Of a DNA stretch of 64,000 nt, positions 16,001 through 44,172 are shown one piece after another. Under the pieces are notes generated by a model. It had not been told where the DNA came from and did no database searches. It saw nothing but the letters and a program-made list of their open reading frames with translations. The position numbers were made by a program, and so were the translations under genes. This stretch comes from a virus. Each line of letters begins with the position of its first letter. Position 1 is the first letter of the stretch. The stretch covers positions 186,001 through 250,000 of the IMG/VR virus record IMGVR_UViG_3300042868_005134; one strand, 5' to 3'.

Positions 16001-17986
16001 GTCGTTGCCTATGAACTATTCAGCACAGACGATCAGTACACTGATGTAGTAGGTCAAACATGGAGGAGTCGAGCAGGGATTAGATTTGAAGCAGTACCTC
16101 CAGCAGGCGCACTAATTAATTACATTATTGATACATCAGTTGCAGACCAAACGTCTAGTGTTGTAAAATTAGAAAATTTAACTTACACAAGTGTTGATAC
16201 ATATCCTCTGGGAAATATCATAGGCTTAAATTCTCCACTGGATCAGAATGTGTTGGTTAAAACTAATCAAACAATATTAAAACCTGCAAGTGCTAATTAT
16301 TTTATTATTGAAAATTCTATGCTTGAATACTCTTTAAGAGATTACAAGTATCTAGGAGTAACTATAAATCCTGGTAACGTTAAAGTCTATAAAGATAATA
16401 CATTACTGGCATATGGCACAGAATATATATTGGATTTTGACTATACTGGAATTGTGTATGGCATTGACTCAACATCTTTAACAATCACCGGCGGCACAGG
16501 CTATGTTGTAGGTGATGTATTGGATGCTGTTGGCGGCACAGTTTCACCTACTGGCAGCTTGGCAAAATTCGAAGTGGTATTTGTAAATGGGTCGGGCAAG
16601 ATTCAACTATTAGAAATTGTTGACGCAGGATCATATGATGTGCCGCCTACTAACCCAATTAACCTATCGGGTGGCTCGGGCATTGGCGCAGCGTTATCTG
16701 CTAATTTTGAAATTATTCAAGACCAGCCAAACATAACTGTTAAATTAAAACCCGATGCTTACACTGACGGATCCGCATTAACAGTGTTGGTAGACTCTAA
16801 CGCAGACTATATTATAAATTCTGATAATTCTATAACATTTAATAATTCATATCCTTCTAATACACCTTTTGAAATCATAAGTTTTTATAACCACAATATT
16901 TTAAAAGTTGAAAGAACTATTGACGAGTTAATCCCTGCTGCTTCTTTAACAAACGGAACTACAGAATATTACGAACTTGTTAGCAAATTGGGCGGCAACT
17001 TTAAATTACGTAACACAGCAGTGTCCGGTGATTTTGTATGGGTAATTAAAAACGGAGAGCTGTTAATGCATGGCATTGATTATTATCTTCAAGATGATTT
17101 TATTACTGTTAAGTTAGCAGACTCATTGTTTAGTTCTGATGTGTTACAGGTAATGGCCTTTACAAATGTAGTAGTCCATGAAAGTTTTGCTTATATGCAA
17201 TTCAAAGATATCTTAAATCGTGTACACTATAAGCGTCTGAACAAATCAAAATCTACACTACTTGCTAGGGATTTGTTCCAGTTTGATAAAGAAATTCATG
17301 TGGATGATGCTAGTACATTAGACAATCCGATGCCTAGCAGAAACGTGCCTGGTATTATAGAAATTAACGGAGAACGCATCGAGTACTTTGTAAAAATTGG
17401 AAATGTGCTAAGTCAGTTACACAGGGGAACGTTGGGTACTGGTATGCCTAATTACCACAGCGCAGACAGTTTAGTTCAAGGCCTTGGCGCAAGCGAAACT
17501 ATTCCGTATAAAGATGAAAGCATCGTTGTAACTCATACTGTTTCTATAGGCGACCTTGGCATAGTAACATTACCTTATATTCCTAGCATAAATGATATGG
17601 AAGTGTTTATAGCAGGGTATAGATTGAAAAAACACCAATATAGTGTTTACTCTAATTTAAATTATCCATATAGCACAGAAGGTGATGTGGTGTTTAATGC
17701 TGAGTTCGAAATTAACGGCACTGTCCAATTACAATTAAATGTGACAGATCTTACAGTCAAAGGGCTATTTGTTCCGGGAGTTAAGATAACTGTGGTAAAA
17801 CGTCAGGGTAGATTATGGAATGATATAGGTCAACGATTGGCAAAATCTAACAATCCTATTGCTAACTTCCTTAAAGAAACTGGCACAAACTGGGTAGAAA
17901 CATACCTAGATAAATATGAAGATAGAGTCTTGGGCGGTGACGGAAACCCACTCTCAGCTGGTGACGGCGAACCTTTGGAATACTAA
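4031..17986 (+). CDS. giant (4651-residue) baseplate/tail structural protein in the gp7/gp8 position
   Basis: One uninterrupted frame of about 14 kb starts by one-base overlap with gp6. T4 has gp7 (1032 residues) and gp8 (334 residues) at this point, so it probably fills their place, but I cannot show homology over its length. The N-terminus (LLPRFYRTPGNKKFLQATVD) matches a type I associate with long virion proteins of aquatic T4-like phages. Visible modules are repeated short beta units of the form VxVYxNGxxLxxxxDY (for example near residues 810, 1037 and 3900-4500), a probable seven-bladed FG-GAP propeller at about residues 2199-2670, and glycine-rich GSGYxxxPxV units near 3080, 3456 and 4149. 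No transmembrane segment or signal peptide is obvious. It could be a wedge protein with host-contact domains. The function beyond virion structure is inference. Confidence 0.8.
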   Translation: MAYSNDQNEPKVPISNVEKRSSADLLPRFYRTPGNKKFLQATVDQLIQPGTVKKLNGYVGRQTAKAVVSSDTFLEAADQTRQNYQLEPAAVIQDYLGNTTFFKDYIDHINHISVFDGVVDNHSRLNREEFYSWNPNICWDKFVNYQQYYWLPFGPRPIEVLGNELEIISTYSVTGVDETDNVAYLFNPEGPLEGLIRNPKIRLFRGQTYIFDINVVGHPFSIKTQRTAGDLYRYTKGVDAYAVENGKITFTVPVDAPDVLFYVSENAVDTGGVFHVLDITENTAINLTTDFVGKKEYVIPNGTAEGLRISNGMKLSFGGQVTPEEYANDFWYVEGVGTAIRLVRDKDLEVRTSFNEETSILFDDNPFDQLPFGDASTLPSTKDYITINRSSSDKNPWSRYNRWFHQDVIIASAAANNVQSGLDQTQRAIRPIIEFNAGIKLHNHGLSSKQNIDVIDNFTKDVFSTIEGSLGYNVDGIDLADAMRVIFTKDTDILVRNKIYRVNFIDVVVPSRQLSFNGTTSVNITNNTFTFASEHGLSSSNRVTYLNNGFDTLPGLTNRQVYYVKVIDSFTIELHTNTALTKQVDIFSAVDAVYKFEVFSGSRRQITLTEESDAVAILYESVTINYGTQETLTSSINGNQGQTYWFTGTTWKLAQIKTKVNQAPLFDLFDKNQISFTDTSVYDGSTFEGNKIFSYKVGTGTVDSELNFPLTYQNINNIGDIVFEFNLLTDKFAYKEITNVLYKDTATGYLKISKDINRAAYENGWTTSLIEDSQPVVRVFKDHIYNGTTIPFPIDVFDNKNDLTDLEVRVYINGNRLAKDQYTVTTSVVRKQVELTTAVTTTDVVTLRCFAKQAKNSNGYYELPISLQNNPLNHNVEQFTLGQVIDHVGSIVDNITTFTGTYPGYGNLRDIGNLSPYGVRFVQHSGPMNLSLYHIGSKSSNVVKAIDMARNDYGKFKRAFIVAATESGIDTDPRRHVDFVLQMINKDRPKTSPYYLSDMFGYTASNRIEYTVLDSRIKTYPLTSKFGLSTLSNKSVNIYLNGDQLVHGRDYVFGDDVFFELLIDIVQDDLIEAYEYETTDGCFCPATPTKLGLYPKFEPKIYLDDTYAEPTRVIQGHDGSITIAFDDYRDDLILELETRIFNNIKCEYNSDIFNIHDYIPGYSRTTLYSFKEFNRILSKYFFQWTTNIQEDYTKHIGYDQTDSFTYNYRGNFTPDNQDVPAAWRGIYTWLLDTIRPHSHPWECLGFSIEPSWWQDVYGPAPYTSDNLILWDDIKEGIIRQPGVPVRRDVKFAKSSLAYGLPVNDQGVLISPKDSGMVSGTIRSGDSGYFEFGDQATVESAWRRSSYYAFALIETCLLMQPNSVLGRCLDRSRIVKNLNNQLVYSETGLRLRLEDIVIPSTSNRNVDTRAYTCGLINYLVDYLSGDNVLRLDEYQLDLTSLTNKITTRIGSFTSQPKYKILLDSKTPSSTGGVFVPEENYYVDLNISSAITKVVYSGVIITKFADGFEVKGYNFDNPYFTYYPSRQDDRVINVGGISEGYITWNSGQIYAAGKIVKNNNQYYRVKTNHTSVETFDSQYYARLAELPVVGGRDAILRKTWDYDEPQTVAYGTKITTIQAMVDFLQGYGAYLEQQGFVFDDFNNELAVITNWETSVKEFLFWSTQNWAAGAVISLSPAANRLIFKSNIAAVDDLTDPFYGYSIFRVDGQKLDPEFITTYRKDGEFTLQPQDTNHGIFGATLFLVQKEHIVVLDNTTLFNDTVYDPEAGYRQERVKVLGYVTSNWNGSFEIPGFIYDRAIVNAWTPWTDFALGDIAKHKEFYYSAKSFLVGTETFNDDSWVLLTEKPKAELLPNWDYKAETFADFYDLDTDNLDSGQQKIAQHLIGYQKRQYLENIIQNDVSQYKFYQGMIIEKGTQNVLNKLFDVLSADGMESLTFDEEWAFRVGEYGAVDTFDEVEFKLDEREFKTNPQPIELVNSIDPLLTDFVYRQRPVDVYVKPYNYTNDIWPVKTTGTYLRTPGYIRSEDVKLSIDNLQDLITVDISSFKEGDYVWCAFENRDWNVYRFSKTPFKINNITYSNKVITIVCDKVITLTVGDVVGIENSVSVQGFHIVASVSLNTFTVSKEVQGWQTWTDQDTVLSYQFNLHRVENIDNANSIIPRYIKPNELIWADNNGHSKWSTYQYAPVYSQGTILNIDVRTNLNFGLATAITDDGNVAAVTDIDGVTIYEKSSSDNVWLSKQRILTTAVLSPGEFGSLIKFSKDGRWLAISAPLADIGFTNQGCVFLYEQGTDGQFDLSNTIVSPVPSAGEKFGINLAFGRKPNPTVLYSALTGTYTENGNGAVWTVTRIGSSYVLLVSDRGLRYKAGETIVIPGSQLGGTNVDNDLTIIINTVDSVTGSIENFTYTGSGLGDVYILAITAEGYNSNQGRVYTYKFDSITVWNQFVTLSTSTISGDYFGYDLAIDTNLTIVASAPSADTESGKVFVYSYTGSNYSLVKTLVGNIVDNAERFGESVSITTDGDYIAVGSTLMNVSNKKDVGQILIYKQSDSTYTTGTPYQVIDSPRNEVNERYGTDIEFMNNKTLVVFSKNGNIENITVFDELSTTFDNSNLQLIDVAVDVGRIDIFDMYNTKFVYGESLDNISVINSGYGEEIAVGNNTVLVSAIKETSQGFTNSGNVYSYIKPGEKFSWMPIHTQVDSVDIGKIKKVYLYNTVTNELVKYLDVIDPLQGKIPGVADQEIRYKTFYDPAIYSVGTSSVNVDDGMNWTTVQVGQLWWDLTRAKFLDTQSGDVIYRTSSWNTLYETASIDVYEWVETSLLPSAWIKQSSTDAGIARGISGTPKYSDEVYSVKKRYDSVSKTFKETYFYWVKGKKDAPNVSGRTLNSYDVAQLIADPAGYGYSFIAFTGTNSFALVNCEKYLQSNNVALSVQYWLSDNKTSNYHSQWKLLSTNRNTIIPTAIEEKWFDSLIGKDSNDRVIPDTSLPLKNRHGIEFKPRQSMFMNRVEALKVFVESVNASIKNELIADDYDLAELDTYEPIPSAVSGLWDIAIDTDSELRFIPTTLLQTAVLKPIIINGRITGITIVSSGYGYGTLREYPKTNTLDPDRWYGPNVKITGSGINAKIKSIIDAQGKIVDYEIENSGEGYTANTAIIVRDVSVLVRSDSESLDLWSIYSWSARIEQWSRIKSQSYDVRKYWQYLDWYADEYNQFVKIDYLVENTYELTTTYMDVGSIAKVRNVGRGGWLLLLKVADTQTIDYTQNFTVIGRQNGTIKFLESLYQFKASTLGFDGPLFDADIFDNSPTTELRIILETIRDKILIDEYRTSYLKVFFACVRYALSEQTFIDWAFKTSFVKSQHNVGELKQKVTYNSDNLEFFEEYIKEVKPYRTKVREYVSNYTSLDYSQSSVSDFDLLPVVNDNRSVAPLLVQVNDNAEIVTDFSEILTYPWRHWHDTVGFEITSIEIVDGGSGYITKPIVKIYEEYQGIVYKLSNSVAAEAKAYISNGRVNRIELVSSGTRWIRAPRIEIIGGLATTGSAATAVAIIGQGVVRSNYVKIKFDRTSKVYEITELISVETFSGTGSRTQYLLKWAPDIKVGESYVTIDNAEVLRDDYTLEVVKSVTKGYTSYSGQITFKNAPPANSATPVNIRIEYKKDFVHLNAPDRINFYYDPQTGQLGKDLAQLMTGIDYGGVEITGLGFGVNAGWDALPWFSEPWDTIDPEFEDYIVTVSSITYSYRMPYVPEENQQINIYISRYTGTSYEPSIRIDDPNYATILQTNNDALMLSFTGDGEIDIINLPITVALSVDDRLIFRKDTSDGSYGARPDEYDTKLSGGNLAYTSATGLAADDIILDGDDLVSANTSYAPEEVVPGQVMDTVAIKVYHRPSGGCPNIMFNHHRGNASTTDFKIGQYFPNDSSVIVKVDNLIKTLSVDYTIDYQNNNIVFNTAPSQGVAIDILSISFNSANILDLDYFISDGVTTEYLTKANWLPTIASTVLVNGAVVAYELFSTDDQYTDVVGQTWRSRAGIRFEAVPPAGALINYIIDTSVADQTSSVVKLENLTYTSVDTYPLGNIIGLNSPLDQNVLVKTNQTILKPASANYFIIENSMLEYSLRDYKYLGVTINPGNVKVYKDNTLLAYGTEYILDFDYTGIVYGIDSTSLTITGGTGYVVGDVLDAVGGTVSPTGSLAKFEVVFVNGSGKIQLLEIVDAGSYDVPPTNPINLSGGSGIGAALSANFEIIQDQPNITVKLKPDAYTDGSALTVLVDSNADYIINSDNSITFNNSYPSNTPFEIISFYNHNILKVERTIDELIPAASLTNGTTEYYELVSKLGGNFKLRNTAVSGDFVWVIKNGELLMHGIDYYLQDDFITVKLADSLFSSDVLQVMAFTNVVVHESFAYMQFKDILNRVHYKRLNKSKSTLLARDLFQFDKEIHVDDASTLDNPMPSRNVPGIIEINGERIEYFVKIGNVLSQLHRGTLGTGMPNYHSADSLVQGLGASETIPYKDESIVVTHTVSIGDLGIVTLPYIPSINDMEVFIAGYRLKKHQYSVYSNLNYPYSTEGDVVFNAEFEINGTVQLQLNVTDLTVKGLFVPGVKITVVKRQGRLWNDIGQRLAKSNNPIANFLKETGTNWVETYLDKYEDRVLGGDGNPLSAGDGEPLEY
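10620..12050 (+). repeat. FG-GAP-like repeats coding a probable seven-bladed beta-propeller
   Basis: Seven protein-level repeats lie inside the giant structural gene. They begin FGLATAITDDGN, FGSLIKFSKDGR, FGINLAFGRK, FGYDLAIDTN, FGESVSITTDGD, YGTDIEFMNN and YGEEIAVGNN at roughly residues 2199, 2250, 2308, 2452, 2505, 2567 and 2643. Most are followed by a hydrophobic strand such as WLAISAP or TIVASAP and then a VFLYE or VFVYSY strand. This is the integrin-type FG-GAP blade pattern. The DNA is not a tandem repeat; only the protein pattern recurs. Confidence 0.7.
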
Positions 17987-18826: not shown

Positions 18827-18833
18827 ATAAATA
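18826..18833 (+). promoter_or_regulatory. possible late promoter box (AATAAATA)
   Basis: AATAAATA lies at the 3' end of the preceding gene, 24 nt before the ATG at 18858, and is followed by AGGAG at 18844-18848. The octamer has one mismatch to TATAAATA and its spacing matches the boxes before gp6 and 26126. In AT-rich DNA this could occur by chance. Confidence 0.4.
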
Positions 18834-27843: not shown

Positions 27844-28899
27844 ATGGCAGGAAGAGGAACACGAGCTACGGCGTCGGATTTTAACAACATTCAAGCAACA
27901 GTTAACAGCGTATTAGGCCTTGGTTCGTCTACACAAGGATACGGACAAACAGTTTCCAGTGCGCAAGTAGGTTCTGGAGCAATCATTACAGTTGCTCAAT
28001 GGACTACTCTACGTGCTGACTTGGTCAAATGTAGAACACACCAAACCAATCTAGCAGTTGTAAACGGTGCAGCAAACGTTAGTGCTAATCGCGGCGGCGC
28101 ATGCCAAACGTTGGAAACTATTACTAGTAGCACTGTTATTAGTGAAGACATTCGAGATCAATACAATTTGTTTACCAACGGAAGTCCTGGTACCATTGGT
28201 ATTAATGCTGAACGATCATTGGCAAACGCAGCCCAATTGAGTGCAGCAACAGCACCAAGCGGTGTTACCAACCCTAGTCAGTATGCTGGCGCATGGGGCG
28301 TAAACGCAAGTAGTACTCGTTACCTAAGACAAATTTACACAGTAACTTTTGCCGGCTACACACATGTTGGCGGATTATCAGTTTCAGCTGCCAATCATAT
28401 CAGATGTTTCTTTAACGCAGGCGGCAAAATTCAATTTACCAGCACTAGAAGCGGTACAGCAGACAACACAAAGGATACCGATTGGACCAATATGTTGAGT
28501 GGCATGGGAAATTTCATATTTGCTGCAGCAAATTCAAGCGTTAGCGGAACTACTAACCCAGGAAACGGTGGATCAACTCCTGGATCTAGTATAGGATATC
28601 ATCAAACAACTGGCACTTACCAAACATTAGTAAATGTAGCATCTACTGTGAGCCGGTACACTGAAAATAGATTTACAGTTGAAGTGCAGACATCAGGTAC
28701 TAACGCTTTGTTATTTAGATTGACATGGGCTGACAATGACGTAATTGAAGGCGCCGAAACAGTGGACGAACCGGTTAATGGTAATGGCGGTTCCAGAATG
28801 GAAAGCAGTTGTTTTATCGTTCGTCCAAACGTAGCAATCACAGTAGACGTTCCGGCGCCTACAGCAAGCGTAGGCGCTTTTGCAGCATCGGCTTCTTAA
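27844..28899 (+). CDS. tail-associated structural protein, last gene of the virion block
   Basis: This 351-residue protein follows the last fibre by 11 nt, with AAGGAA before ATG. It is rich in Ser, Thr, Ala, Gly and Asn and has no charged helical regions, as in exposed virion proteins. Repeating-strand segments such as YTVTFAGYTHVGGLSVSAA and FTVEVQTSGTNALLFRLTW suggest beta-sandwich folds. It ends in a loose Ala/Ser tail. I do not recognise a family name, but similar proteins close fibre clusters of aquatic T4-like phages in my recollection. It could be a fibre tip or decoration protein. A hairpin follows about 23 nt after its stop. Confidence 0.65.
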   Translation: MAGRGTRATASDFNNIQATVNSVLGLGSSTQGYGQTVSSAQVGSGAIITVAQWTTLRADLVKCRTHQTNLAVVNGAANVSANRGGACQTLETITSSTVISEDIRDQYNLFTNGSPGTIGINAERSLANAAQLSAATAPSGVTNPSQYAGAWGVNASSTRYLRQIYTVTFAGYTHVGGLSVSAANHIRCFFNAGGKIQFTSTRSGTADNTKDTDWTNMLSGMGNFIFAAANSSVSGTTNPGNGGSTPGSSIGYHQTTGTYQTLVNVASTVSRYTENRFTVEVQTSGTNALLFRLTWADNDVIEGAETVDEPVNGNGGSRMESSCFIVRPNVAITVDVPAPTASVGAFAASAS

Positions 28900-28917
28900 T
28901 CAATAAACTCTAAATCG

Positions 28918-28946
28918 TTGACACTCCTAGGCTAAGATAGTATACT
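28918..28946 (+). promoter_or_regulatory. sigma70-type promoter for the glycosyltransferase operon
   Basis: TTGACA (28918-28923), a 17-bp spacer and TATACT (28941-28946) give a -35 identical to consensus and a -10 with one mismatch. Initiation would be expected near 28952-28955, just before the ribosome binding site of the gene at 28971. It marks an expression switch from late structural genes to a module that unmodified host RNA polymerase could read. Confidence 0.8.
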
Positions 28947-28970
28947 ATACTATAAACCTAGGAGTTTTTT
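28923..28970 (+). terminator. terminator-like hairpin containing the next gene's ribosome binding site
   Basis: A perfect 9-bp inverted repeat, ACTCCTAGG (28923-28931) and CCTAGGAGT (28957-28965), is followed by a run of T to 28970. The 25-nt loop holds a second palindrome, ATAGTATACTAT. The 3' arm contains AGGAG (28960-28964), the ribosome binding site of the GTG start at 28971. Read-through transcripts of the virion operon would form the hairpin; transcripts from the internal promoter lack the 5' arm. Confidence 0.7.
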
Positions 28971-29321
28971 GTGGACGAACGATTTCAAAAAGCCTTTGAA
29001 ACTGCCAATTATATGACAACATTGGCCAGTCAAAAGCAAATTCTTAAAGAAGAATTTTATCAAAATTTAATTCATTATCATAATGGCGGAATCTTTACCG
29101 CATCGCGTGAGCTAATCAATTTTACCAAAACGCTAGTTGATATTGGTAACAATGAATCTACAGTACTGGTAGATAATAACGAATTACCTGTTGACATTGT
29201 TGATCTCTCTAAATTTTTAGAGGAGTTGCTGTCAAAATATCATTTTGCCGTTAACGGGTATTATACAAGATACGATCAGATGAGAAAGAATAGAACTGTG
29301 GAAGGTATTCTCAGTGTATGA
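28971..29321 (+). CDS. small unknown protein, first gene of the early-type operon
   Basis: This 116-residue protein starts with GTG, chosen because AGGAG (28960-28964) sits 6 nt upstream and the next in-frame ATG would remove a regular helical N-terminus. It is predicted to be mostly helical (ERFQKAFETANYMTTLASQKQILKEE reads as a continuous amphipathic stretch) and has no known motif, signal peptide or cysteine. It ends in an ATGA overlap with the first glycosyltransferase-like gene, so the two are translated together. It could be an accessory or regulatory partner. The function is unknown. Confidence 0.65.
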   Translation: MDERFQKAFETANYMTTLASQKQILKEEFYQNLIHYHNGGIFTASRELINFTKTLVDIGNNESTVLVDNNELPVDIVDLSKFLEELLSKYHFAVNGYYTRYDQMRKNRTVEGILSV

Positions 29322-30142
29322 CACAGGGCGTTTTACTTTTCGCAAATAACAACAGCGAAATAGCATACACTGATTTAGCTATTTTTGCTGCACAGCAAAT
29401 AACAAAGTATCTAAATGTGCCAGTTAGTATTGTAACTGATAGCAAACCCAGCATTTCAAAAAACGTATTTGATAAAATTATAGAAATAACTGATAATTCT
29501 TCTTATACTAAAAGATTTCACGACGGCACTGACAGTAACAAAACGTTACATTGGAAAAATACATCCAGGTCTCGGTGCTACGAGCTTACTCCATACGATG
29601 AAACGCTGGTTATTGATGTTGATTATATAGTTAATTCGACAACTTTAAACTATTGTTGGAATCAGCCGCATGATTTTTTAATTTATTCCAAATATTGTGA
29701 TCTAGCACAATGGCGAAGTAGCGCAGAATTTGATCATGTAAGCGAATATTCAGTACCGTTCTATTGGGCCACTGTATTTTTCTTTAGAAAAACTGAACTT
29801 AATAAACAATTTTTTGATTTAATAACACATATTAAATTAAATTGGGTTTATTACAAGTTTGTATATCAAATTCAAAGTACAAATTTTAGAAATGATTATG
29901 CTTATAGCATAGCAATACACATGATGAATGGTTTCACAAATGGTGTATTTGCTAACCAACTACCTAGCAAGATGTTTTATACATTGGATACTGATTTTCT
30001 TATTGATATCGATGGCGACACCATGAAATTTCTTGTTGAAAAACAAAATACACCTGGTGAGTATACCGCTTTAAAAACTTCAGGATTAGACGTTCATGTT
30101 ATGAACAAGTATAGTTTGTTAAGGTGTGTTAACAATGAGTAA
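29318..30142 (+). CDS. GT-A-fold glycosyltransferase-like protein (GT8-like)
   Basis: This 274-residue protein has the layout of small GT-A glycosyltransferases. There is an N-terminal strand (GVLLFANNNSEIAYTDLAIF), a VSIVTDS second strand, and an acidic metal-binding-type motif in ETLVIDVDYIV (D-V-D, about residue 103) preceded by RCYELTPYD. This arrangement resembles GT8-type enzymes with a DxD that binds Mn2+ and a nucleotide sugar. Donor and acceptor cannot be told from sequence. It overlaps both neighbours, and its sister gene follows directly. Alternative: a catalytically inactive relative, since the family is divergent. Confidence 0.6.
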   Translation: MTQGVLLFANNNSEIAYTDLAIFAAQQITKYLNVPVSIVTDSKPSISKNVFDKIIEITDNSSYTKRFHDGTDSNKTLHWKNTSRSRCYELTPYDETLVIDVDYIVNSTTLNYCWNQPHDFLIYSKYCDLAQWRSSAEFDHVSEYSVPFYWATVFFFRKTELNKQFFDLITHIKLNWVYYKFVYQIQSTNFRNDYAYSIAIHMMNGFTNGVFANQLPSKMFYTLDTDFLIDIDGDTMKFLVEKQNTPGEYTALKTSGLDVHVMNKYSLLRCVNNE

Positions 30143-34033: not shown

Positions 34034-34257
34034 TAGATTTAGAAACATTCGAATTACGTAAACTACAAACAGAAGCTGCTCGCGCATTGTCTTCGATGGA
34101 AGCAACTAATGACAATATATACAAATTTAACCAAGTTGCTAGACATGACAGTCATTTATGGTATAAAGCTGTAATTAATTGGTATATAGAACAACATGGG
34201 GGCCTCCCAAGCGAGATAGGTCCAGGCTCAACAGTTAAAATGGTAACAACACAATGA
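34030..34257 (+). CDS. small protein directly before the first radical SAM gene
   Basis: This 75-residue protein overlaps both neighbours by 4 nt. It has no cysteine. The sequence is helical up to about residue 55 (LRKLQTEAARALSSMEATND), followed by GGLPSEIGPGSTVKMV. Position right before a radical SAM/SPASM gene is where RiPP precursors are often found, and the tail is Gly/Ser/Thr-rich, but no precursor family is recognised. It could equally be a small accessory protein. The function is unknown. Confidence 0.55.
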   Translation: MIDLETFELRKLQTEAARALSSMEATNDNIYKFNQVARHDSHLWYKAVINWYIEQHGGLPSEIGPGSTVKMVTTQ

Positions 34258-35417
34258 TGTATAATTATGATGATATAAAAACAGTTCACTTAGAAATTAC
34301 TGATAAGTGTAATGCTGCTTGCCCTATGTGTGCAAGAAATATCAATGGTGGTGAAGATAATCCTCAGTTGCCAAATACTGAAATCACACTAGCAGATGCT
34401 GAAATAATTTTTCCAGTAGATTTTGTTAAACAACTTGATCGAATGTATATGTGCGGTAATTTTGGTGATCCTATGGCAGCATCTGACACACTTGAAGTTT
34501 TTCAATATTTTAGGAAACATAATCCTAAAATGTCGTTGTCGTTACACACTAACGGCAGTGCTAAAACAACTGAATGGTGGAAAACTTTAGCAGCAACACT
34601 AAGTCCTAACGGGTATGTGGTATTTGGTATTGACGGATTAGCGGATACTAATCACTTGTATAGGCAAAATACTAATTTTGACAAGATTATGCAAAATGCT
34701 CAGGCTTTCATCGATGCGGGTGGCAGAGCTCGTTGGGATTACATTGTATTTGCACATAATGAGCACCAAGTTGAAGAAGCAGAAAAATTAGCTAACAACA
34801 TGAAGTTTGAAAAATTTCAAATTAAAAAGTCGGCAAGATTTGTTAGTAATGACGGCACTACTAAAGACCAGCACATTGCTCGTAATCGGAAAGGTATGTC
34901 TACTTTATTACAGCCCCCTACTAACCCTAAGTATCGAAATAGTGCATTACAAGAAATAAGTAAGATTGAGAGTAAGTCCAGAGTTGTTAAATTTAATCCT
35001 AGCAAAGTTTCAGAATTAACAATTTTAAAAAAACAAGTATTCAATACTGATCCTGAAAAGAAATCTCCTATTGAAAAATACTGGGATACTACTGAAATTA
35101 CATGTAAAGTTGCAGAAGAAAAAAGCATTTATATCAGCGCAGAAGGCATAGTACAACCTTGTTGTTGGACAGCTGGTCAAATGTATGTGTGGTTTTTACA
35201 ACCTAAGAGTACGCAAATTTGGTCTCTTATAGACGAAATTGGAAAAGACAAATTAAACGCTAAACTCACTTCGCTAAAGAGTATAGTTGACGGATTATTC
35301 TTTCAAGACTTACTACCTGAAAGTTGGAAGAAAACAAGTTGTGCTACTGGAAAACTGGCAATATGTGCTAGGACATGCGGCGGTAAGTATAACGCCTTTG
35401 CTGAACAATTTAAATAA
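34254..35417 (+). CDS. radical SAM enzyme with C-terminal SPASM-like cysteine region
   Basis: This 387-residue protein has CNAACPMC, the CX3CX2C motif (C19, C23, C26) that binds the [4Fe-4S] cluster used to cleave S-adenosylmethionine to a radical. After the core come cysteines at about C284 and C303-C304 (QPCCW) and CARTCG near 373-379. These resemble SPASM/twitch auxiliary-cluster ligands. Family marks shared with the genes at 44172 and 45233 are YMCGNFGDP, LHTNGSAKTTEWW, GIDGLADTNHLYRQ and YIVFAHNEHQ. ATGA overlap with the previous gene makes it the last gene of the early-type operon; a second ATG immediately follows. The substrate is unknown. Confidence 0.85.
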   Translation: MMYNYDDIKTVHLEITDKCNAACPMCARNINGGEDNPQLPNTEITLADAEIIFPVDFVKQLDRMYMCGNFGDPMAASDTLEVFQYFRKHNPKMSLSLHTNGSAKTTEWWKTLAATLSPNGYVVFGIDGLADTNHLYRQNTNFDKIMQNAQAFIDAGGRARWDYIVFAHNEHQVEEAEKLANNMKFEKFQIKKSARFVSNDGTTKDQHIARNRKGMSTLLQPPTNPKYRNSALQEISKIESKSRVVKFNPSKVSELTILKKQVFNTDPEKKSPIEKYWDTTEITCKVAEEKSIYISAEGIVQPCCWTAGQMYVWFLQPKSTQIWSLIDEIGKDKLNAKLTSLKSIVDGLFFQDLLPESWKKTSCATGKLAICARTCGGKYNAFAEQFK

Positions 35418-35436
35418 TTTAAATTATTATTTTTTT
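35413..35436. terminator. possible bidirectional terminator (AT-only palindrome plus T run)
   Basis: The perfect 16-bp palindrome AATAATTTAAATTATT (35413-35428) lies where two convergent radical SAM genes meet and is followed by a T run to 35436. The stop of the upstream gene overlaps its left edge. Because it has no G or C the stem is weak, and AT-rich DNA makes such palindromes frequent. Confidence 0.35.
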
Positions 35437-36369
35437 AGATATATTAGTTTCTAAGGCACAGCTACACCACGCCTGTTTACAAACTACTGGTGTTTTCGAT
35501 AATCCTTTAAAATCTTTTAAAGTTCCTAAATTCTGCCCTTGACTACAACTAGCGCCAGTTATGTCTCCAAAAAAAGAAATATATAAACAATCTGCTCCAA
35601 TATTACAAGTCCAGTTAAAAAACTTGTTTAATCTATTGTTAAGCAAATACTGATCGTCAAGAGGTTCTTCTTGTCCATTATCGTATTTTATAAATGTTTG
35701 TCCAAATCCCCGACCTTGACTTAGATTGAATGGAAACGCTTTATTTACAGGTGTTTCTTTTTCGAACCATGCCAGCTGTTGTTCTGTGTACTCGTAGCTA
35801 GTATCTTGTTCTAATTGATCTTTCTTAAATACTCTAGTAAATCCAGTATGTGCCATACTGTCCATGATTTTAAATTTATTGTATACTTCGACGCACTTAT
35901 CCCATAACGGTGGCCACATTAATACAAATACTCCAGCATTGGTAACTTTGCCAATAGCATCCATTTTTTCAAATATATCTGTATTATCCCATTCTGGATG
36001 ATAGCTCAATGTAACTTTGTACAATTTTGGAGCATATTCTTGCCACCAGGCTAAACTCCGTGTACCGTTTGTGTTAACATGGCAGTGCCAATTATATTCG
36101 TTAAACTTGTCGCACAAGAATTCAAAGTGCGGAGAAATAGTAGGTTCTCCGCCGTTTAAAAATATATGTACTGGTCTATCTTTAACTTCTTCTTTTAGCT
36201 TAGATAAGAAATTTTCTAGTATCGCACGATCTTCTACCTTGTTGATTATAGTGTTAGTGCCTCGATGTAGTAAATCAGGACAATAGGTACAGTGATATGT
36301 ACAAATACTGTTCAAAGTCCAATTAATTACAAGTACATTATTCTTGTCATAGATTTCTATAGGTTTCAT
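35419..36369 (-). CDS. radical SAM enzyme with C-terminal cysteine-rich tail
   Basis: This 316-residue protein has CTYHCTYC (C23, C27, C30), FLNGGEPTIS (the GGE motif that contacts SAM) and a C-terminal set of cysteines: CNIGADCLYISFFGDITG, ASCSQG and CKQAWCSC. These could hold one or two auxiliary Fe-S clusters. The layout NWTLNSICTYHC, then THNG-type VNTNGTRSLAWW and VTLSYHPEW, matches the gene at 50226, so these two form a subfamily. It is transcribed divergently from the gene at 36402, and a GATAAATA box is 8 nt before its ATG. The product and substrate are unknown. Confidence 0.83.
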   Translation of the reverse strand: MKPIEIYDKNNVLVINWTLNSICTYHCTYCPDLLHRGTNTIINKVEDRAILENFLSKLKEEVKDRPVHIFLNGGEPTISPHFEFLCDKFNEYNWHCHVNTNGTRSLAWWQEYAPKLYKVTLSYHPEWDNTDIFEKMDAIGKVTNAGVFVLMWPPLWDKCVEVYNKFKIMDSMAHTGFTRVFKKDQLEQDTSYEYTEQQLAWFEKETPVNKAFPFNLSQGRGFGQTFIKYDNGQEEPLDDQYLLNNRLNKFFNWTCNIGADCLYISFFGDITGASCSQGQNLGTLKDFKGLSKTPVVCKQAWCSCALETNISKKIII

Positions 36370-36377
36370 ATTACGTC

Positions 36378-36385
36378 TATTTATC
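36378..36385 (-). promoter_or_regulatory. late promoter box (GATAAATA), minus strand
   Basis: On the minus strand GATAAATA lies 8 nt before the ATG of the radical SAM gene ending at 35419. It shares a 32-bp divergent region with a CATAAATA box on the other strand. No Shine-Dalgarno sequence lies between the box and the ATG. Confidence 0.6.
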
Positions 36386-36389
36386 TAGC

Positions 36390-36397
36390 CATAAATA
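36390..36397 (+). promoter_or_regulatory. late promoter box (CATAAATA) 4 nt before a start codon
   Basis: CATAAATA is followed by TCTC and then ATG at 36402, with no Shine-Dalgarno sequence. A T4-type box initiates roughly 5-7 nt after its end, so the transcript would begin at or near the A of the ATG. A near-identical string precedes the paralogue at 41916 on the opposite strand. Confidence 0.6.
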
Positions 36398-36401
36398 TCT
36401 C

Positions 36402-37679
36402 ATGACACCAAATACTATATTTCCAATTAAGTCTGAAACTGCCTGTTTATTAAAATGGGCCTGGAGCAGTCTTTTCGTATATCAAGGAACTTCTAGCTCA
36501 TGCCATCGAACAATACATTCTTCGTTTGGTCCAGAGTTAATAGGCACTTTTCACAATACTCCTGAAAAAATCAAAGAACGTGAATTAATGCTTAACGGTA
36601 AATGGCCAGGTCGCGGGTGTGAATATTGCCGAGATATTGAAGCCGCCGGCGGCACAAGTGATCGTATGAGAGAATTGGAAGGGTTGTCGGATCCACTTTA
36701 CCGAGGATTTATCCCGCCAGAATTAAAAGATAATCCCTTTGCTACAGTTGTCACTCCTACTATGTTAGAAGTTTACTTTAGTAATTTGTGTAATATGACA
36801 TGCTTGTATTGCGGCCCAGATTTAAGTACACAATGGGTCGCTGAAAATAATATTCATGCAGGTGATCGTGGTAAACAGCAATTTAAAATACATCAAGAAC
36901 GACAAAATTTATATCCTGAGCGTTTAAAATATTTTTGGGAATGGTTATCAAACAACTATCAAAGTCTCAGGATGTTTAACGTATTAGGTGGCGAGCCATT
37001 TTACCAAGATGAAACAGAACAATGTATTGAATTTTGGAATAACAATCCCAATCCCAAAATGCATTTTAGCATATTTTCTAATTTAAAAGTTAAGCCTGAA
37101 AAATTTAAAAAAATATTAGATAAATTTGATTATCTTATTAAAAATAAAAAAGTAAGTTCTATAGGGATAACAGCTAGTCTTGATTGTTGGGGCGTCGAAC
37201 AAGAATATGTGCGATGGGGCGTAGATTTAAATGAGTGGGAAACTAATTTCAAAACTCTTGTTTACGATTACCCTAGCATAAAGATTTGCGTTAACAGTAC
37301 AATAAATTGCCTTTCTATAAAAACTATGCCCGAATTACTAACTAGAATTAATGATTGTAATTCTTATCGTAAAAGTATTACAGGTAATGATATTATTCAT
37401 AGTTTTAATATGTTAACGGAACCAAACTTCATGAATGCTAAGATTTTCCCGGCAGGGTTCTTCGATGAAGATTTTAAAAAGATTTTAACTGTTATGCCTT
37501 CAGCCACAGCAAGAGAGCAGAGTCTAAAAGAGCATATGGAAGGTATTTGGAAAGCATACAATTCTGCCAAACACGATCCTAGTCAAATTGCTTTGTTAAA
37601 AGAAGTACTCGACGAAGCAGACAAGCGTCACAAAACCAATTGGCAAACAATTTTTCCTTGGTTAACGGACATACATTAA
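36402..37679 (+). CDS. radical SAM enzyme with N-terminal cysteine module (twitch-type)
   Basis: This 425-residue protein has the radical SAM CX3CX2C motif late in the sequence (CNMTCLYCGP, C130, C134, C137). It has extra cysteines before it: C15 (ACLLKWAWSS), C34 (SSCHR), and C73/C76 in GCEYCRDIEAAGGTSDR. VLGGEPFYQDE supplies the GGE motif. The same order with the same spacing occurs in the minus-strand gene at 40660, its closest relative here. The N-terminal cysteines probably bind an auxiliary cluster in the way SPASM/twitch domains do, but on the other side of the core. It ends in FPWLTDIH, a tail shared by the family. The start is fixed by the paralogue and by the box at 36390. Confidence 0.83.
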   Translation: MTPNTIFPIKSETACLLKWAWSSLFVYQGTSSSCHRTIHSSFGPELIGTFHNTPEKIKERELMLNGKWPGRGCEYCRDIEAAGGTSDRMRELEGLSDPLYRGFIPPELKDNPFATVVTPTMLEVYFSNLCNMTCLYCGPDLSTQWVAENNIHAGDRGKQQFKIHQERQNLYPERLKYFWEWLSNNYQSLRMFNVLGGEPFYQDETEQCIEFWNNNPNPKMHFSIFSNLKVKPEKFKKILDKFDYLIKNKKVSSIGITASLDCWGVEQEYVRWGVDLNEWETNFKTLVYDYPSIKICVNSTINCLSIKTMPELLTRINDCNSYRKSITGNDIIHSFNMLTEPNFMNAKIFPAGFFDEDFKKILTVMPSATAREQSLKEHMEGIWKAYNSAKHDPSQIALLKEVLDEADKRHKTNWQTIFPWLTDIH

Positions 37680-37682
37680 ATA
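37675..37682 (+). promoter_or_regulatory. late-promoter-like box (ATTAAATA) 4 nt before a start codon
   Basis: ATTAAATA overlaps the stop of the preceding gene and is followed by CTAG and ATG at 37687, with no Shine-Dalgarno sequence. The 4-nt spacing equals that at 36402, 41916, 41955 and 56515. Two mismatches to TATAAATA make it weaker than the others. Confidence 0.45.
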
Positions 37683-37686
37683 CTAG

Positions 37687-38232
37687 ATGAAAATACTTAT
37701 TACTGGAAATCCAAATTTTGGCTTAGCATCTGAATTGTTTAAGCTATACCCTGACGCAACATTCATATCGAGAGAAAGTGGATATGATTTAACCACCCGA
37801 GAAGGTTATCGTAAACTAGGTGAGATAGTCGCAGAATACGATATTTTTATCAATTCAAGTGCGTTATGGAAATTTAATCAAACGCTAGTACTTGATGCTG
37901 TATATAAAAAATGTGTAGAGATCAAACACAATATGCGAATCATTTGTATAGGTAGCACTACAGATAGAGTTAAGAAAGCAACATCGTGGATTTATAACGC
38001 TGAGAAAAAAGCACTACGTGATTATTCAAATAGTTTAAGTTTAACAGGTGTGTGGGATTCAGGCCCAACAGTCTCGCTAATCAGTTTTGGCAGTTTGTCT
38101 AATGTACAAGAAAAACACCCAGGCCGTGTTTGTTTAGAACTATCACGTGCCGCATCTTATATTAAATGGTTGATTGACCAGCCTTCGGATATATGTATTA
38201 ATGAAATCAGTATTGACCCTTTACAACATTAA
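37687..38232 (+). CDS. short-chain dehydrogenase/reductase-like protein
   Basis: This 181-residue protein starts with a dinucleotide-binding strand-loop (MKILITGNPNFGLASELF), has an NSSA element (56-59) in place of the usual NAG motif, an ICIGS strand and YNAEK (Y103, K107), the YxxxK pair of SDR enzymes, with S90 as the likely third catalytic residue. It is shorter than typical SDRs (about 250), so the C-terminal substrate-binding part is reduced. It lies between two radical SAM genes and its stop overlaps the next ATG (TAATG). It probably carries out NAD(P)-linked oxidation or reduction in the same pathway. The substrate is unknown. Confidence 0.65.
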   Translation: MKILITGNPNFGLASELFKLYPDATFISRESGYDLTTREGYRKLGEIVAEYDIFINSSALWKFNQTLVLDAVYKKCVEIKHNMRIICIGSTTDRVKKATSWIYNAEKKALRDYSNSLSLTGVWDSGPTVSLISFGSLSNVQEKHPGRVCLELSRAASYIKWLIDQPSDICINEISIDPLQH

Positions 38233-39545
38233 TGACTAAAACCTTTTGTCCTATTCCTTGGAATTTCCAAGCAGTCCGTAATAACGGAGATATTCGTGTA
38301 TGTTGTCAAGCCAACGTAACAGAAAATCAAGGTGTGGTTAGACATGCGGACGGTACTCCGTTCAACGCTGGTAAAGATGATATGGAAATTGCTCGAAATG
38401 CCACACTGATGAAAGAAGTTCGTATGAACATGTTGACAGGCGAGTGGAGTAAAGAATGCGGCCGGTGCCAACAAGAAGAAGCAAGTGGCTTAAACAGTCG
38501 TAGACAATACGAACTAGATAACTGGAAATTTAGTATAGATGATGCTCGCAACATTACAGACGTTGATGGCACCATTAAAAATAGACAGTTAGAATATTAT
38601 GATTTACGATTTGGTAACTTATGTAACTTAGCGTGTCGTATGTGTGGTCCAACCGATAGTCATACTTGGTATGAACAATGGACAGAATATCATGGTAGTA
38701 CAGATTACGCAGACACACACGGCATTGTAAAACTAATTAAAAACTCTAAAGGCAGATTAAGTACTGAGGATTATGATTGGCATAACAGTGAAACATTCTG
38801 GCAGCAAATAGAAGCTAATATTCCAAATATCAAACATGTCTATATGGCCGGCGGTGAACCAATGATGATTGAACGTCATTATGAGTTCTTACAAAAGTGT
38901 ATCGATATGGGTCAAAGTAACAAGATGATTATCGAGTACAATACTAACATGAGTAATTTGCCACAACGTGTATTGGATATGTGGACGCAGTTTAAGCAAG
39001 TTCGTGTTGGCGCCAGTATGGATGGTATGGGCGATGTAGTAGAATATCAGCGCTGGCCTCTAAAGTGGAGCCAGGCATATAAGAACTTACAAAAGCTAGA
39101 TGAATATGCACAAAATAATTCCAATATACTTGCTTGGTTAGCGTGTACAGTAACAGCATATAACATTTGGCACATACCTCGTTTTATGAAGTGGAAATTA
39201 CAAAGTAGTGGATTTAAAAAGATTAATAGTACAAAAAAACGTCCTATCATAACACATCATGTGGCACATGGTCCAAAACGTGTTAATGTACGGGTATTGC
39301 CAGCTGACATGAAACAAGAGATAGTTGAATACTATGCTCGTTGGATAGAAGAATTTAAAACAGAATATCCAGAAGATATTGCTAAGAACGCTGAAAATAT
39401 TTTAAACAGCATTACCAAGTATATGTTAGATGCAGATTACAGTGATAAACTTCCTGAGTTTATTAAGTTTACAAAGTATTTAGACAGTGCCAGAGATCAG
39501 CATATTGTTGATATAGCACCAGAATTTAAACGATTATTTGATTAA
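38232..39545 (+). CDS. radical SAM enzyme with N-terminal cysteine module (twitch-type)
   Basis: This 437-residue protein opens with TFCPIPWNFQAV and RVCCQA (C6, C24, C25), then CGRCQQEEASGLNSRR (C76, C79), before the radical SAM motif CNLACRMCGP (C131, C135, C138). MAGGEPMM is the GGE motif. The early FCxxPW, CC and CxxC cysteines suggest an auxiliary Fe-S cluster bound before the core. It is closest to the gene at 41955: both have YxDLRFG before the CX3CX2C and a tail like APEFKRLFD. The last 12 nt overlap the convergent nitroreductase gene. The substrate is unknown. Confidence 0.85.
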   Translation: MTKTFCPIPWNFQAVRNNGDIRVCCQANVTENQGVVRHADGTPFNAGKDDMEIARNATLMKEVRMNMLTGEWSKECGRCQQEEASGLNSRRQYELDNWKFSIDDARNITDVDGTIKNRQLEYYDLRFGNLCNLACRMCGPTDSHTWYEQWTEYHGSTDYADTHGIVKLIKNSKGRLSTEDYDWHNSETFWQQIEANIPNIKHVYMAGGEPMMIERHYEFLQKCIDMGQSNKMIIEYNTNMSNLPQRVLDMWTQFKQVRVGASMDGMGDVVEYQRWPLKWSQAYKNLQKLDEYAQNNSNILAWLACTVTAYNIWHIPRFMKWKLQSSGFKKINSTKKRPIITHHVAHGPKRVNVRVLPADMKQEIVEYYARWIEEFKTEYPEDIAKNAENILNSITKYMLDADYSDKLPEFIKFTKYLDSARDQHIVDIAPEFKRLFD

Positions 39546-40658
39546 GATTTCAGAAGGTCTGTCTTTAGTTCTTCGTTGTCTTATAAAATGGTTACCAGTA
39601 GCATCTACACACAAGTTACTTGGTTTGGCAGCATCTGGCGCACCTATACCTAATATAGCAACAGGGTAATTATCTTCGGTAATGCCATGCTTGCTAGATA
39701 ACCAGTTAGAAATATTGCTCGGATTATAACATCCGCAAAATCCTGTCTTGTATCCTAGTAATTGTGCGGCAAGTGCTACCGCGCCTGCACTAATACCCGT
39801 ATTCAAACTTTGATGTCTTGTTAGTTCTATATCGGTATCGTATTCGAGATCGAACAGTCTATTATAAGTTTCGTCTTTATTAGCAGTCCACATAAAAACA
39901 ACTGGTGCAAGTAACTGTGTGTTATAGTTGTGCTGATTTCTGGAAGTATATGCTGTACCAATCTTTAATACTGGCATCCTTGGCAATCCGTGATTAATAA
40001 CATCGATTATAATATTAGTAAGCTGACCAATGTCGGTAGCTTCTGCTGTAATGTTAGGAATTAAAACTTGAGGTTCAGCAAGCTGAATAGCTGGTATTTT
40101 AACATTAACTAAGATATATTCTGTAATCAATCTTTGAATAAATCTATGTGCTTCAAGTTCGGCAATTTTCCTAACTTGTAAGTTTCCGTAGATATCAAAA
40201 TACTTTGATACTATGTTACGTGTGTACTTATTAGAATCTAGTTTTAGATCTTTAATGTAAGCTTCTACAACAAATCCAATATCTCTGTAACATTTGTGCG
40301 CCTCGTATACAAATCCATCAAACGGCGCACTATTAGTATCTACTTTATGCTTGATCCAAGCAGCACCTTCTCTTTTAATAAATTCTTTATTTTCTTTTAG
40401 TAATCGAACAGCGTTAGGGGCTAAATTCGGCATATTATCCGGAATATAACCTTCACTATGACAAATTTCAAATAATTCTTCTTTTGCGTCTGCGTCAGTA
40501 AATGCGATACATTTAAAGAAGTTAACATTCTGCTTGGTAGGAGTTCCATTAGCTACTTGTAACAGTAAGTTTAAATTTTCTTCAGATACGCTGTCGCTAA
40601 TCCAGTTTCTTTGACAAGCATTAATTGATGTTAGGGCTGATAATAGTTCGGTATTCAT
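39534..40658 (-). CDS. nitroreductase-like flavoprotein split by a virion-type domain
   Basis: Residues 1-75 read as the start of a nitroreductase (ALTSINACQRNW, then ANGTPTKQNVNFFKCIAFTD, the FMN-phosphate region). Residues about 245-345 complete it (RHQSLNTGISAGAVALAAQLLGYKTGFCG, YPVAILGIGAPD). Between them, about residues 80-235, is a segment with LLKENKEFIKREGAAWIKH and CYRDIGFVVEAYIKDLKL. This is like the NKxFI...CxRDxGxxVxAxxxDL modules I know from large structural proteins of aquatic T4-like phages. The joining of an FMN reductase with such a domain is unusual. A GATAAATA box and GAAGGA lie before the start, inside the last codons of the gene behind it. The reaction in vivo is unknown. 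Confidence 0.7.
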   Translation of the reverse strand: MNTELLSALTSINACQRNWISDSVSEENLNLLLQVANGTPTKQNVNFFKCIAFTDADAKEELFEICHSEGYIPDNMPNLAPNAVRLLKENKEFIKREGAAWIKHKVDTNSAPFDGFVYEAHKCYRDIGFVVEAYIKDLKLDSNKYTRNIVSKYFDIYGNLQVRKIAELEAHRFIQRLITEYILVNVKIPAIQLAEPQVLIPNITAEATDIGQLTNIIIDVINHGLPRMPVLKIGTAYTSRNQHNYNTQLLAPVVFMWTANKDETYNRLFDLEYDTDIELTRHQSLNTGISAGAVALAAQLLGYKTGFCGCYNPSNISNWLSSKHGITEDNYPVAILGIGAPDAAKPSNLCVDATGNHFIRQRRTKDRPSEILIK

Positions 40659-40659
40659 G

Positions 40660-41916
40660 TTAGATTCCTTCTTTAATATTTATCATCCACGGAAATACCT
40701 GCCGCCAATTTGTATTTCTGCGTTGGTCCATTTTATCTAAGAATATTTTTAATTCTTTGACTTTTTCATAATTTGTAGGAGTTTCGATAATTTCTTTAAA
40801 AATAGCATTTACATAATTGCTGTATTCTGCGTCATTAAACATCTGCCCATTTAATTCTTGTATTTCTCTTATTTTGTCAATATATATCTCACCTGGAATA
40901 TTATGTGGATCTAAAATTTCAGGAGAAATACATTTATTGTAATTTACACTGATTTTTTTACCCTTACATGTGTTGTTCCAATGAATGACTTTTTTAATTA
41001 ATTCTGGAGTACTATGTATCGATAATGCTGACACTGTCCAGTTCATTGTGGGAATAATTTCAGGACATTCGTATATTAAGTATTCCATATTTTCTGTGAA
41101 TGTCGCAAGATCCAATCCTGTTCTAATATATTCTGATTCTATCCCCCAGCAGTCAATACTAGCAGTTAGCTCAACAGTATTACAAGTTTTTACTAATTGT
41201 TTAATTTTTTCCATCTGTTTTTTAAAAAGAGATGGTTTAATTTGCATGTTAGAAAAGATCTCAACATCGAGATCTGGATTTGGATGTGCAATCATCCAAT
41301 CTATACAATCGAAAGTTTCTTGTTGAATTAATGGTTCGCCACCTAGTATATGAAATTCTCGTAAATCACAATAATGTTTTTCCATCCACACATAAAACTC
41401 AGCTAACCTTGTTTTATAAGTCACATCATCCATTGCGATAGAATTTAAAAAAGAGTTATTACTAGGCCCGTATTGTTCCTCTTCCAACACCCACGAACTA
41501 CTTAAAAATGGCCCACAATATAAGCATTTTAAATTACATTTATTATTGAAATAAATTTCTAACATTGTAGGATTTACTGAAGTTTGTGTTGGGTTAGTGT
41601 ACAATTCTTTAGGTACATATTTCTCGTTATACGGTCTGGACAACCAATTTTTTCTATCACTAAAATTACTATATGTTTCTTGATCCTTACAGCTTTCGCA
41701 CCCGCGTCCTGGCCACTCGTTTTTTAACATTTTTTCTCTATCTATAATTACTTCGGGCGTATTGTGAAAATTTTCAATATTATCTACTTTAACATTTTCT
41801 ACCCTGTGACAAGAACTAGACGTACTAGTCCATAAGTATAAACTACTCCATGCCCATTTTAATAAACAAGCCTGTTCAGATTGGATTGGGAACCATTTTT
41901 TAGCATTTTCAGTCAT
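40660..41916 (-). CDS. radical SAM enzyme with N-terminal cysteine module (paralogue of 36402)
   Basis: This 418-residue protein parallels the gene at 36402: FPIQSEQACLLKWAWSSLYL (C17), SSSCHR (C36), GCESCKDQETYSNFSDR (C73, C76), then the radical SAM motif CNLKCLYCGP (C127, C131, C134) and ILGGEPLIQQE. It ends in RRNTNWRQVFPWMINI, like its sister. The conserved starts MTxN...FPIxSExACLLKW confirm the ATG at 41916, before which a GATAAATA box is separated by only four bases. It lies on the minus strand between plus-strand relatives, so gene order here has been rearranged. The substrate is unknown. Confidence 0.83.
   Translation of the reverse strand: MTENAKKWFPIQSEQACLLKWAWSSLYLWTSTSSSCHRVENVKVDNIENFHNTPEVIIDREKMLKNEWPGRGCESCKDQETYSNFSDRKNWLSRPYNEKYVPKELYTNPTQTSVNPTMLEIYFNNKCNLKCLYCGPFLSSSWVLEEEQYGPSNNSFLNSIAMDDVTYKTRLAEFYVWMEKHYCDLREFHILGGEPLIQQETFDCIDWMIAHPNPDLDVEIFSNMQIKPSLFKKQMEKIKQLVKTCNTVELTASIDCWGIESEYIRTGLDLATFTENMEYLIYECPEIIPTMNWTVSALSIHSTPELIKKVIHWNNTCKGKKISVNYNKCISPEILDPHNIPGEIYIDKIREIQELNGQMFNDAEYSNYVNAIFKEIIETPTNYEKVKELKIFLDKMDQRRNTNWRQVFPWMINIKEGI
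40677..40684 (-). promoter_or_regulatory. late promoter box (GATAAATA) for the nitroreductase gene
   Basis: On the minus strand GATAAATA lies within the last codons of the radical SAM gene, 18 nt before the nitroreductase ATG, with GAAGGA in between. Here the box has a normal leader with a ribosome binding site, unlike the short-leader set. Confidence 0.55.
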
Positions 41917-41920
41917 GAAA

Positions 41921-41928
41921 TATTTATC
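41921..41928 (-). promoter_or_regulatory. late promoter box (GATAAATA) 4 nt before a start codon
   Basis: On the minus strand GATAAATA is followed by TTTC and then ATG at 41916. The string ATAAATATTTCATGAC is almost the same as ATAAATATCTCATGAC before the paralogue at 36402. There is no ribosome binding site. It shares a 38-bp divergent gap with the box at 41943. Confidence 0.6.
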
Positions 41929-41942
41929 GATAAAATACAGCG

Positions 41943-41950
41943 GTTAAATA
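41943..41950 (+). promoter_or_regulatory. late-promoter-like box (GTTAAATA) 4 nt before a start codon
   Basis: GTTAAATA is followed by TAGT and ATG at 41955, with no Shine-Dalgarno sequence. It would drive the eight-gene coupled operon that runs to 51398. Spacing equals that of four other genes in the window. Confidence 0.5.
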
Positions 41951-41954
41951 TAGT

Positions 41955-43358: not shown

Positions 43359-44172
43359 AAATTTAGAATGGGTCCCTGGCGATCCTATCACAAAAGAAAT
43401 GCTAGAGGTTAAGTCAGAAGATTACGCATTGTGGAAAAAAACGTGGGGCGATAGCTACTGTGTTGAAAATGTATTTGACGATGATGAGTTGACCTGGTTA
43501 GAAGATTTAATGTATAGAAATCATAAAAGTCGACGTGTTAAGAAAAATGGAACGCTTCACTTTAATGTAGATAACAGACTGATACAAGATAAATTTTTTG
43601 ATAAATTAAAATCAGTTATTCCTGAATTGGAAAATACTGAATTATGGGAAGGCAATTTTTTAATAACTGCTACTCCATATAATATACATATCGACACCGG
43701 TAATCACCAAGTGATGAGTAATGCTACCTATGTTCCGGGGAAGCAATTTATTATTCCTCTTTGGTTCTGTCACGGACACAAAGAGACAGATTATCCTGAA
43801 CACGGCACCGCTATTTTTAAAAATCGATTTATCATGTACGGAACAAATTTTGCCAAAGGAGACGCAAAATATGACACAAATGTTTTTTATACAGTACGTG
43901 ACTATAAGGATTTAGTATGCTATAATAAAGATGGCTCCGTGTGGAACGTTGATTGGTCTAAGCGTAGTGTAAGCGATAACGACTATATTAGATACTTTGA
44001 TCACTTTAAAAGAGAATGGCTAGACGGTTTTGAATTAGAAGCAGTCTACCAATGGAAACGTGGAAGTATTATTGTATTTGATAGATCACAAGCGCACACT
44101 GGCATCAATTTTATGAAAAACAAGGTAACACTGAAATGTGGGTTATCTATGATGACAACAGTTAAAAGATAA
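43345..44172 (+). CDS. Fe(II)/2-oxoglutarate-dependent oxygenase-like protein
   Basis: This 275-residue protein has the marks of a double-stranded beta-helix oxygenase: NIHIDTGN supplies HxD (H115, D117), and RGSIIVFDRSQAHTGINF supplies the distal histidine (H251) within a typical strand, followed by a basic residue (LK) for 2-oxoglutarate binding. Such enzymes hydroxylate or desaturate C-H bonds using O2 and 2-oxoglutarate. It starts inside the end of the preceding radical SAM gene, with AAGGAT upstream, and is coupled to the next (TAATG), so it probably acts in the same pathway. Phages of aquatic bacteria often carry oxygenases of this fold. The substrate is unknown. Confidence 0.7.
   Translation: MEQHKNLEWVPGDPITKEMLEVKSEDYALWKKTWGDSYCVENVFDDDELTWLEDLMYRNHKSRRVKKNGTLHFNVDNRLIQDKFFDKLKSVIPELENTELWEGNFLITATPYNIHIDTGNHQVMSNATYVPGKQFIIPLWFCHGHKETDYPEHGTAIFKNRFIMYGTNFAKGDAKYDTNVFYTVRDYKDLVCYNKDGSVWNVDWSKRSVSDNDYIRYFDHFKREWLDGFELEAVYQWKRGSIIVFDRSQAHTGINFMKNKVTLKCGLSMMTTVKR

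Follow-up and report, generated by a model that had tools for sequence, protein, structure and literature searches.

The DNA analysed here, referred to below as the window, is a stretch of 64,000 nucleotides that corresponds to positions 186001-250000 of a 383,411-base virus record from IMG/VR. In this window, a co-directional gene that terminates a run of tail-fibre and virion genes (stop at 28899) is followed by an operon whose first gene encodes a 116-aa protein and whose second gene encodes a glycosyltransferase-like protein. A promoter, a hairpin and the Shine-Dalgarno (SD) sequence of the operon's first gene occupy the same short segment between the two gene groups, and the features of the locus are as follows.

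18827-18833 (+): late-type element ATAAATA before gene 18858, with no exact copy closer to the segment upstream on this strand
27844-28899 (+): upstream gene, last of the tail-fibre/virion genes; its neighbours belong to PHROGs tail and structural families
28918-28946 (+): sigma70-type (early-class) promoter TTGACA-17-TATACT, matching 11/12 consensus positions and the top promoter match in 20 kb
28923-28931 (+): left (anti-SD) arm ACTCCTAGG, from the inverted repeat and the fold
28937-28953 (+): inner stem of 7 bp (28937-28943/28947-28953) that encloses the -10 box, from the fold
28953 (+): predicted transcription start of the internal promoter, placed by geometry 7 nt past the -10 box
28957-28965 (+): right arm CCTAGGAGT with the SD sequence AGGAG (28960-28964), from the fold
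28966-28970 (+): T run 3' of the stem (T6 when T28965 is included), possibly a weak terminator tail, from the sequence and its relatives
28971-29321 (+): gene for the 116-aa protein, first of the operon, with 67 IMG/VR relatives
29318-30142 (+): gene for a GT-A-fold glycosyltransferase-like protein, second of the operon, from its alignment and structural model

The genes upstream of the segment match PHROGs baseplate and tail families, while the product of 27844-28899 itself has no family match; a single ORF of 4651 aa (4031-17986) lies within this baseplate/tail-fibre run. The first genes of the operon have no family in Pfam or PHROGs, and tblastn searches with the 116-aa protein, the glycosyltransferase-like protein and the product of gene 31510 against 50,697 phage records returned nothing; a DNA search likewise gave no match among phage records. 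The structural model of the 116-aa protein (pLDDT 91) consists of a long coiled-coil and β-hairpins and gave a weak prefoldin-like fold match. That of the second protein (pLDDT 90) has a glycogenin-like Foldseek match (E 2e-7), and the alignment of this protein contains a conserved DxD motif (DSD) in the consensus VIDSDYI. Since a GT-A fold is predicted for the second gene, the designation "glycosyltransferase operon" used in the preliminary description of this DNA is fair for that gene. Further downstream in the window (34254-45236), this phage genome has a cluster made up of a nitroreductase-like gene and at least six genes of the radical SAM-like type, of which one has a SPASM domain.

The promoter, the 9-bp repeat, the AGGAG motif in its right arm and the T run had all been reported before, and direct reading of the sequence bears each of them out. 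TTGACA (28918-28923) and TATACT (28941-28946) are separated by a 17-nt spacer, the arms ACTCCTAGG and CCTAGGAGT form a perfect 9-bp inverted repeat (28923-28931/28957-28965), and TTTTT (28966-28970) stands directly 5' of the GTG start codon at 28971. Outside these arms, pairing is predicted to continue between 28921-28922 and GU in the GTG start codon, and between 28915-28919 and 28974-28978. The minimum free energy of the 91-nt RNA is -25.6 kcal/mol (z -5.2), a value as low as which was reached by none of 200 shuffled sequences; hence, the hairpin of the window is far beyond chance. In a comparison of leaders, the energy is -18.7 kcal/mol here versus -2.6 to -9.8 for control genes of the window. 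The site escaped a simple terminator scan because the loop measures 25 nt and the scan was limited to loops of 3-8 nt. The left arm is predicted to be present in RNA that reads through from upstream and missing from RNA that starts at the internal promoter, and the calculated probability that the SD sequence is unpaired rises accordingly from 0.001 in the read-through RNA to 0.32 in the internal RNA.

The same arrangement recurs among the relatives. The 116-aa protein is encoded at 67 IMG/VR loci, with the same gene order wherever it was read, and the hairpin covers the SD zone in all 41 distinct leaders; 40 of these have a folding z-score below -2 (median -3.6). In 37 of the 41, a sigma70 promoter (at least 9/12 matches, spacer of 17 or 18 nt) has its predicted start inside the hairpin, 11-18 nt 5' of the start codon in every case, and the 5' partner of the SD-zone pairs always lies upstream of that predicted start (37/37). 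Under a stricter threshold of at least 10/12, 58 of the 66 leaders of the first set have a promoter within 75 nt of the start codon, whereas the background in the more distant upstream sequence is 0.11 per kb. In 33 of 35 comparisons, the SD sequence is predicted to be more accessible in the internal RNA than in the read-through RNA. Part of the GGAG motif sits in an internal loop in several leaders of the main clade, so the occlusion of the SD sequence may be partial there. A covariance model built from the main clade detects one copy per record with significant scores, always at the gene for the 116-aa protein.

In a tree of 89 leaders, calculated from the two joined proteins, the window falls within a supported clade of 54 leaders, 48 of which carry the hairpin by a strict rule. 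The anti-SD arm varies widely within this clade (CTCCTAGG, CTCTTGAC, GCCCCAA, GACCCCTTGA, ACCTCTTGA and AATTACTGTAG) while pairing is kept, which indicates that the sequence of the stem has been replaced several times as pairing with the SD sequence persisted. In an alignment of 25 sequences of the main clade, 98% of the cells are paired, versus 28-56% when one side is slid along the other, and the number of cells changed on both sides exceeds that in all 500 shuffles. A pattern search of viral contigs with CTCCTAGG-N-CCTAGGAG returned at least 119 stretches; because a palindrome of this kind may arise by chance, these were kept out of the evidence.

The inverted repeat might instead be an operator that overlaps the promoter, and the position of the -10 box at the centre of the dyad would suit a binding site for a repressor or activator acting on the DNA. 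The kinds of mismatch in the stem speak strongly against this possibility. G-U pairs occupy 54 cells and A-C mismatches only four, an A-C count reached by 0.05% of column shuffles, although these counts take sequences rather than independent events as their unit. In a DNA dyad, A-C would be as likely as G-U, and the large excess of G-U thus points to an element that acts as RNA and not to an operator in the DNA. The relatives do not share symmetric half-sites of conserved sequence: the half-site sequence is replaced between lineages, and bulges and asymmetric loops are common. On the strength of the G-U/A-C count we reject the operator, which we regard as extremely improbable.

Another possibility is that the hairpin serves as an intrinsic terminator, or as a protector of the 3'-end of the upstream virion transcript, and that the next promoter and SD sequence merely happen to lie in the same DNA. 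The stability of the stem and the T6 that follows it in the clade of the window fit such a role. Across the first set, however, the T run amounts to T6 in the window and T5 in one relative (L004) and is missing from the others, in which the stem usually ends right at the start codon. A terminator or protector would, moreover, have no need to include the SD sequence in every lineage or to track its changes. Since the T run is limited to the window's own clade, termination is not the general function of the element, and we reject it as such in view of the missing conserved U run; a role in termination would be local at most, and a terminator or protector that shares this DNA only by coincidence seems improbable to us. 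Of the preliminary view that promoter, terminator-like hairpin and hidden ribosome binding site form one unit, the combination of promoter, hairpin and hidden SD sequence stands at the sequence level and is conserved in relatives, whereas termination is not supported as a general function, the T run being present but confined to one clade.

The transcripts that would reach this segment come from promoters of two putative classes, which are assigned here, in uncultured phages, from their consensus sequences. The virus record encodes a gp55-like late sigma factor (E 8e-25). Its gene lies outside the window (G000:C1:179899-180237, minus strand), in an open reading frame that is, at about 284 aa, longer than T4 gp55 (185 aa). 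A search of the record for an Rpb1-like RNA polymerase subunit encoded by the phage found none. Late-type NATAAATA promoters precede the tail genes, and of the nine ATAAATA elements in the window eight are located no more than 80 nt upstream of a gene, in zones that make up 2.75% of the sequence. Three ATAAATA elements, at 36402 (+), 41916 (-) and 56515 (-), stand only 4 nt before a start codon and would, judged from this spacing, yield late mRNAs with little or no leader.

TTGACA-N16-18-TATNNT, in turn, occurs 48 times in the record versus six times for the reversed control. About 20 promoters of the TTGACA class are concentrated within 11 kb (G000:C1:87000-98000, locus L326), with one before nearly each small ORF (47-145 aa) at a distance of 26-60 nt, and no ATAAATA is present on the same strand of this cluster. 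By analogy with T4-like phages, we infer that it is an early-gene region. It also provides a control from the same genome: the median hairpin z-score of 18 scored leaders is -0.76, with only 2 of the 18 below -2, so that leaders of the cluster mostly lack a hairpin and the promoter class alone does not bring one along. The gp55-like sigma factor, the late-type upstream promoters and the TTGACA early-type cluster together lend support to the proposed separation of early expression from late read-through.

The distance over which late transcripts would have to travel needs to be considered as well. The nearest exact late promoter is situated about 10 kb upstream of the element in the window, and this counts against an explanation based on the silencing of read-through RNA. 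Among the relatives, 56 of 58 ATAAATA elements precede an ORF by no more than 60 nt; many are situated about 1 kb upstream of the hairpin element, and the ORF is often the gene that just precedes it.

We consider it likely that the segment is a leader that is silenced in read-through RNA and carries its own bypass promoter, so that the operon products would be made early and not in the late phase. RNA reading through from the upstream tail and virion genes would contain both arms and fold, thereby burying the SD sequence, and partly the GTG start codon, of the gene for the 116-aa protein; the operon message on such RNA would be poorly translated. Host-type sigma70 RNA polymerase would start at about 28953, inside the hairpin, and the resulting RNA, devoid of the left arm, could not form the fold and would be translated from a free SD sequence. 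The operon for the 116-aa protein and the glycosyltransferase-like protein would consequently be expressed only from its own early-class promoter. Because the upstream genes are of the late class and the inner promoter is of the early class, the operon is likely to be early and off during late transcription.

The hiding of an SD sequence in read-through RNA by a hairpin is known from T4 gene e, soc, 49, I-TevI, segB and Aeh1 mobE; in these T4-type leaders a promoter inside the hairpin region yields RNA without the 5' arm, and this inner promoter is a late one (TATAAATA), so that early and middle read-through RNA is silenced (PMC3014915, PMC2988022). When processed by the same pipeline, the T4 gene e leader gave a z-score of -3.8 and the same layout. 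As in gene e, the longer RNA of the phages studied here pairs the SD sequence and/or the start codon, as judged from structure prediction and conservation, and the promoter-derived RNA is predicted to lack the 5' arm in all 37 promoter-bearing leaders. Unlike in gene e, the inner promoter is TTGACA-17-TATACT rather than the late TATAAATA, and no ATAAATA is present in the window's element. With late-class genes upstream and a sigma70/early-class promoter inside the hairpin, both assigned by consensus, the timing would be reversed relative to T4, and neither the gene family nor the stem sequences are related to those of the T4 leaders. The gene e mechanism is thus known, and what appears to be new is its reversed timing in an unrelated group of phages and genes.

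A comparable arrangement protects certain insertion sequences. In IS10 and IS50, RNA that enters from outside folds back on itself, and the element's own sigma70-type promoter starts inside the structure. For the protection of IS10 and IS200 from outside transcription, PMC2965389 cites Davis, Simons and Kleckner (1985) and Beuzon (1999), and outside read-through RNA of IS200 folds and hides the ribosome binding site (PMC3196728). The ribosome binding site of the phage gene would likewise be hidden by the folding of outside read-through RNA. In contrast to these mobile elements, the phage leader keeps a fixed position in the operon, its stem does not derive its sequence from a mobile-element end, and no transposase or mobile ends are present; downstream of the leader lie the genes for the 116-aa and GT-A-like proteins in conserved order, not a transposase.

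Hairpin and promoter do not always occur together. Ten of the 54 leaders of the window's clade (e.g., L028, L030, L031 and L043) carry the hairpin without a recognizable sigma70 promoter, and these four have no match of at least 10/12 within 600 nt upstream; such leaders speak against a simple version of the bypass-promoter explanation. Either these ten leaders use an unrecognized type of promoter or their hairpin has been turned to a different control. Many leaders outside the clade carry the promoter without the hairpin, and the two are thus separable. An analysis of independent pairs, of which there were too few for a firm conclusion, gave no correlation of hairpin and promoter on the tree. 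Among the relatives, a contig binned as a Gammaproteobacteria metagenome-assembled genome (L244, NZGL01000008.1), probably a phage contig, carries the gene for the 116-aa protein behind a sigma70 promoter with ACATAAATA in its spacer and no hairpin.

Hairpins that lack a recognizable sigma70 promoter, in L028, L030, L031, L043, L287, L293 and others, could also be taken to mean that the element is a stand-alone translational switch, opened on read-through RNA by a protein, a small RNA or temperature, with the promoter being incidental. We judge this unlikely, as neither a loop sequence nor a binding site is conserved among the leaders, whole stems are replaced, and promoters of at least 10/12 are present in 58 of the 66 first-set leaders; a search of Rfam, moreover, gave no match above the gathering score.

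The silenced leader with its bypass promoter may be part of a broader picture, which we put forward tentatively and with somewhat less than even confidence. Here, the element would be a temporal insulator, from which the phage would presumably benefit: an early operon is placed directly behind a late virion operon, late read-through RNA is rendered untranslatable, and the leader has long been maintained by selection that acts on pairing and not on sequence, with the stem rebuilt again and again from new sequence and the promoter lost in some lineages to leave a stand-alone translational control. If this is true, the trick of T4 gene e extends beyond genes for lysis and homing endonucleases and beyond the silencing of early RNA, and unrelated large environmental phages use it in reverse at a fixed operon boundary. 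The dozens of natural versions of the stem constitute ready compensatory variants for testing, and a simple search rule follows from the layout, namely to look for promoters with the -10 box at the apex of a hairpin in which the next SD sequence is buried.

The window contains a second element in which a hairpin and a promoter coincide, TTGACACCGCCTGCGGGCGGTGTTATAAT at 60178-60150 (-), located before the gene at 60120-58909 and found also in L214, L215, L217, L220, L223, L224, L227, L231, L232 and L234. Its 17-nt spacer is filled by a GC-rich stem that does not cover the SD sequence, and in the relatives this stem is changed on both sides (CCACC/GGTGG, CCTCC/GGAGG, GGACC/GGTCC, CCGCC/GGCGG); it is perhaps a terminator merged with a promoter.
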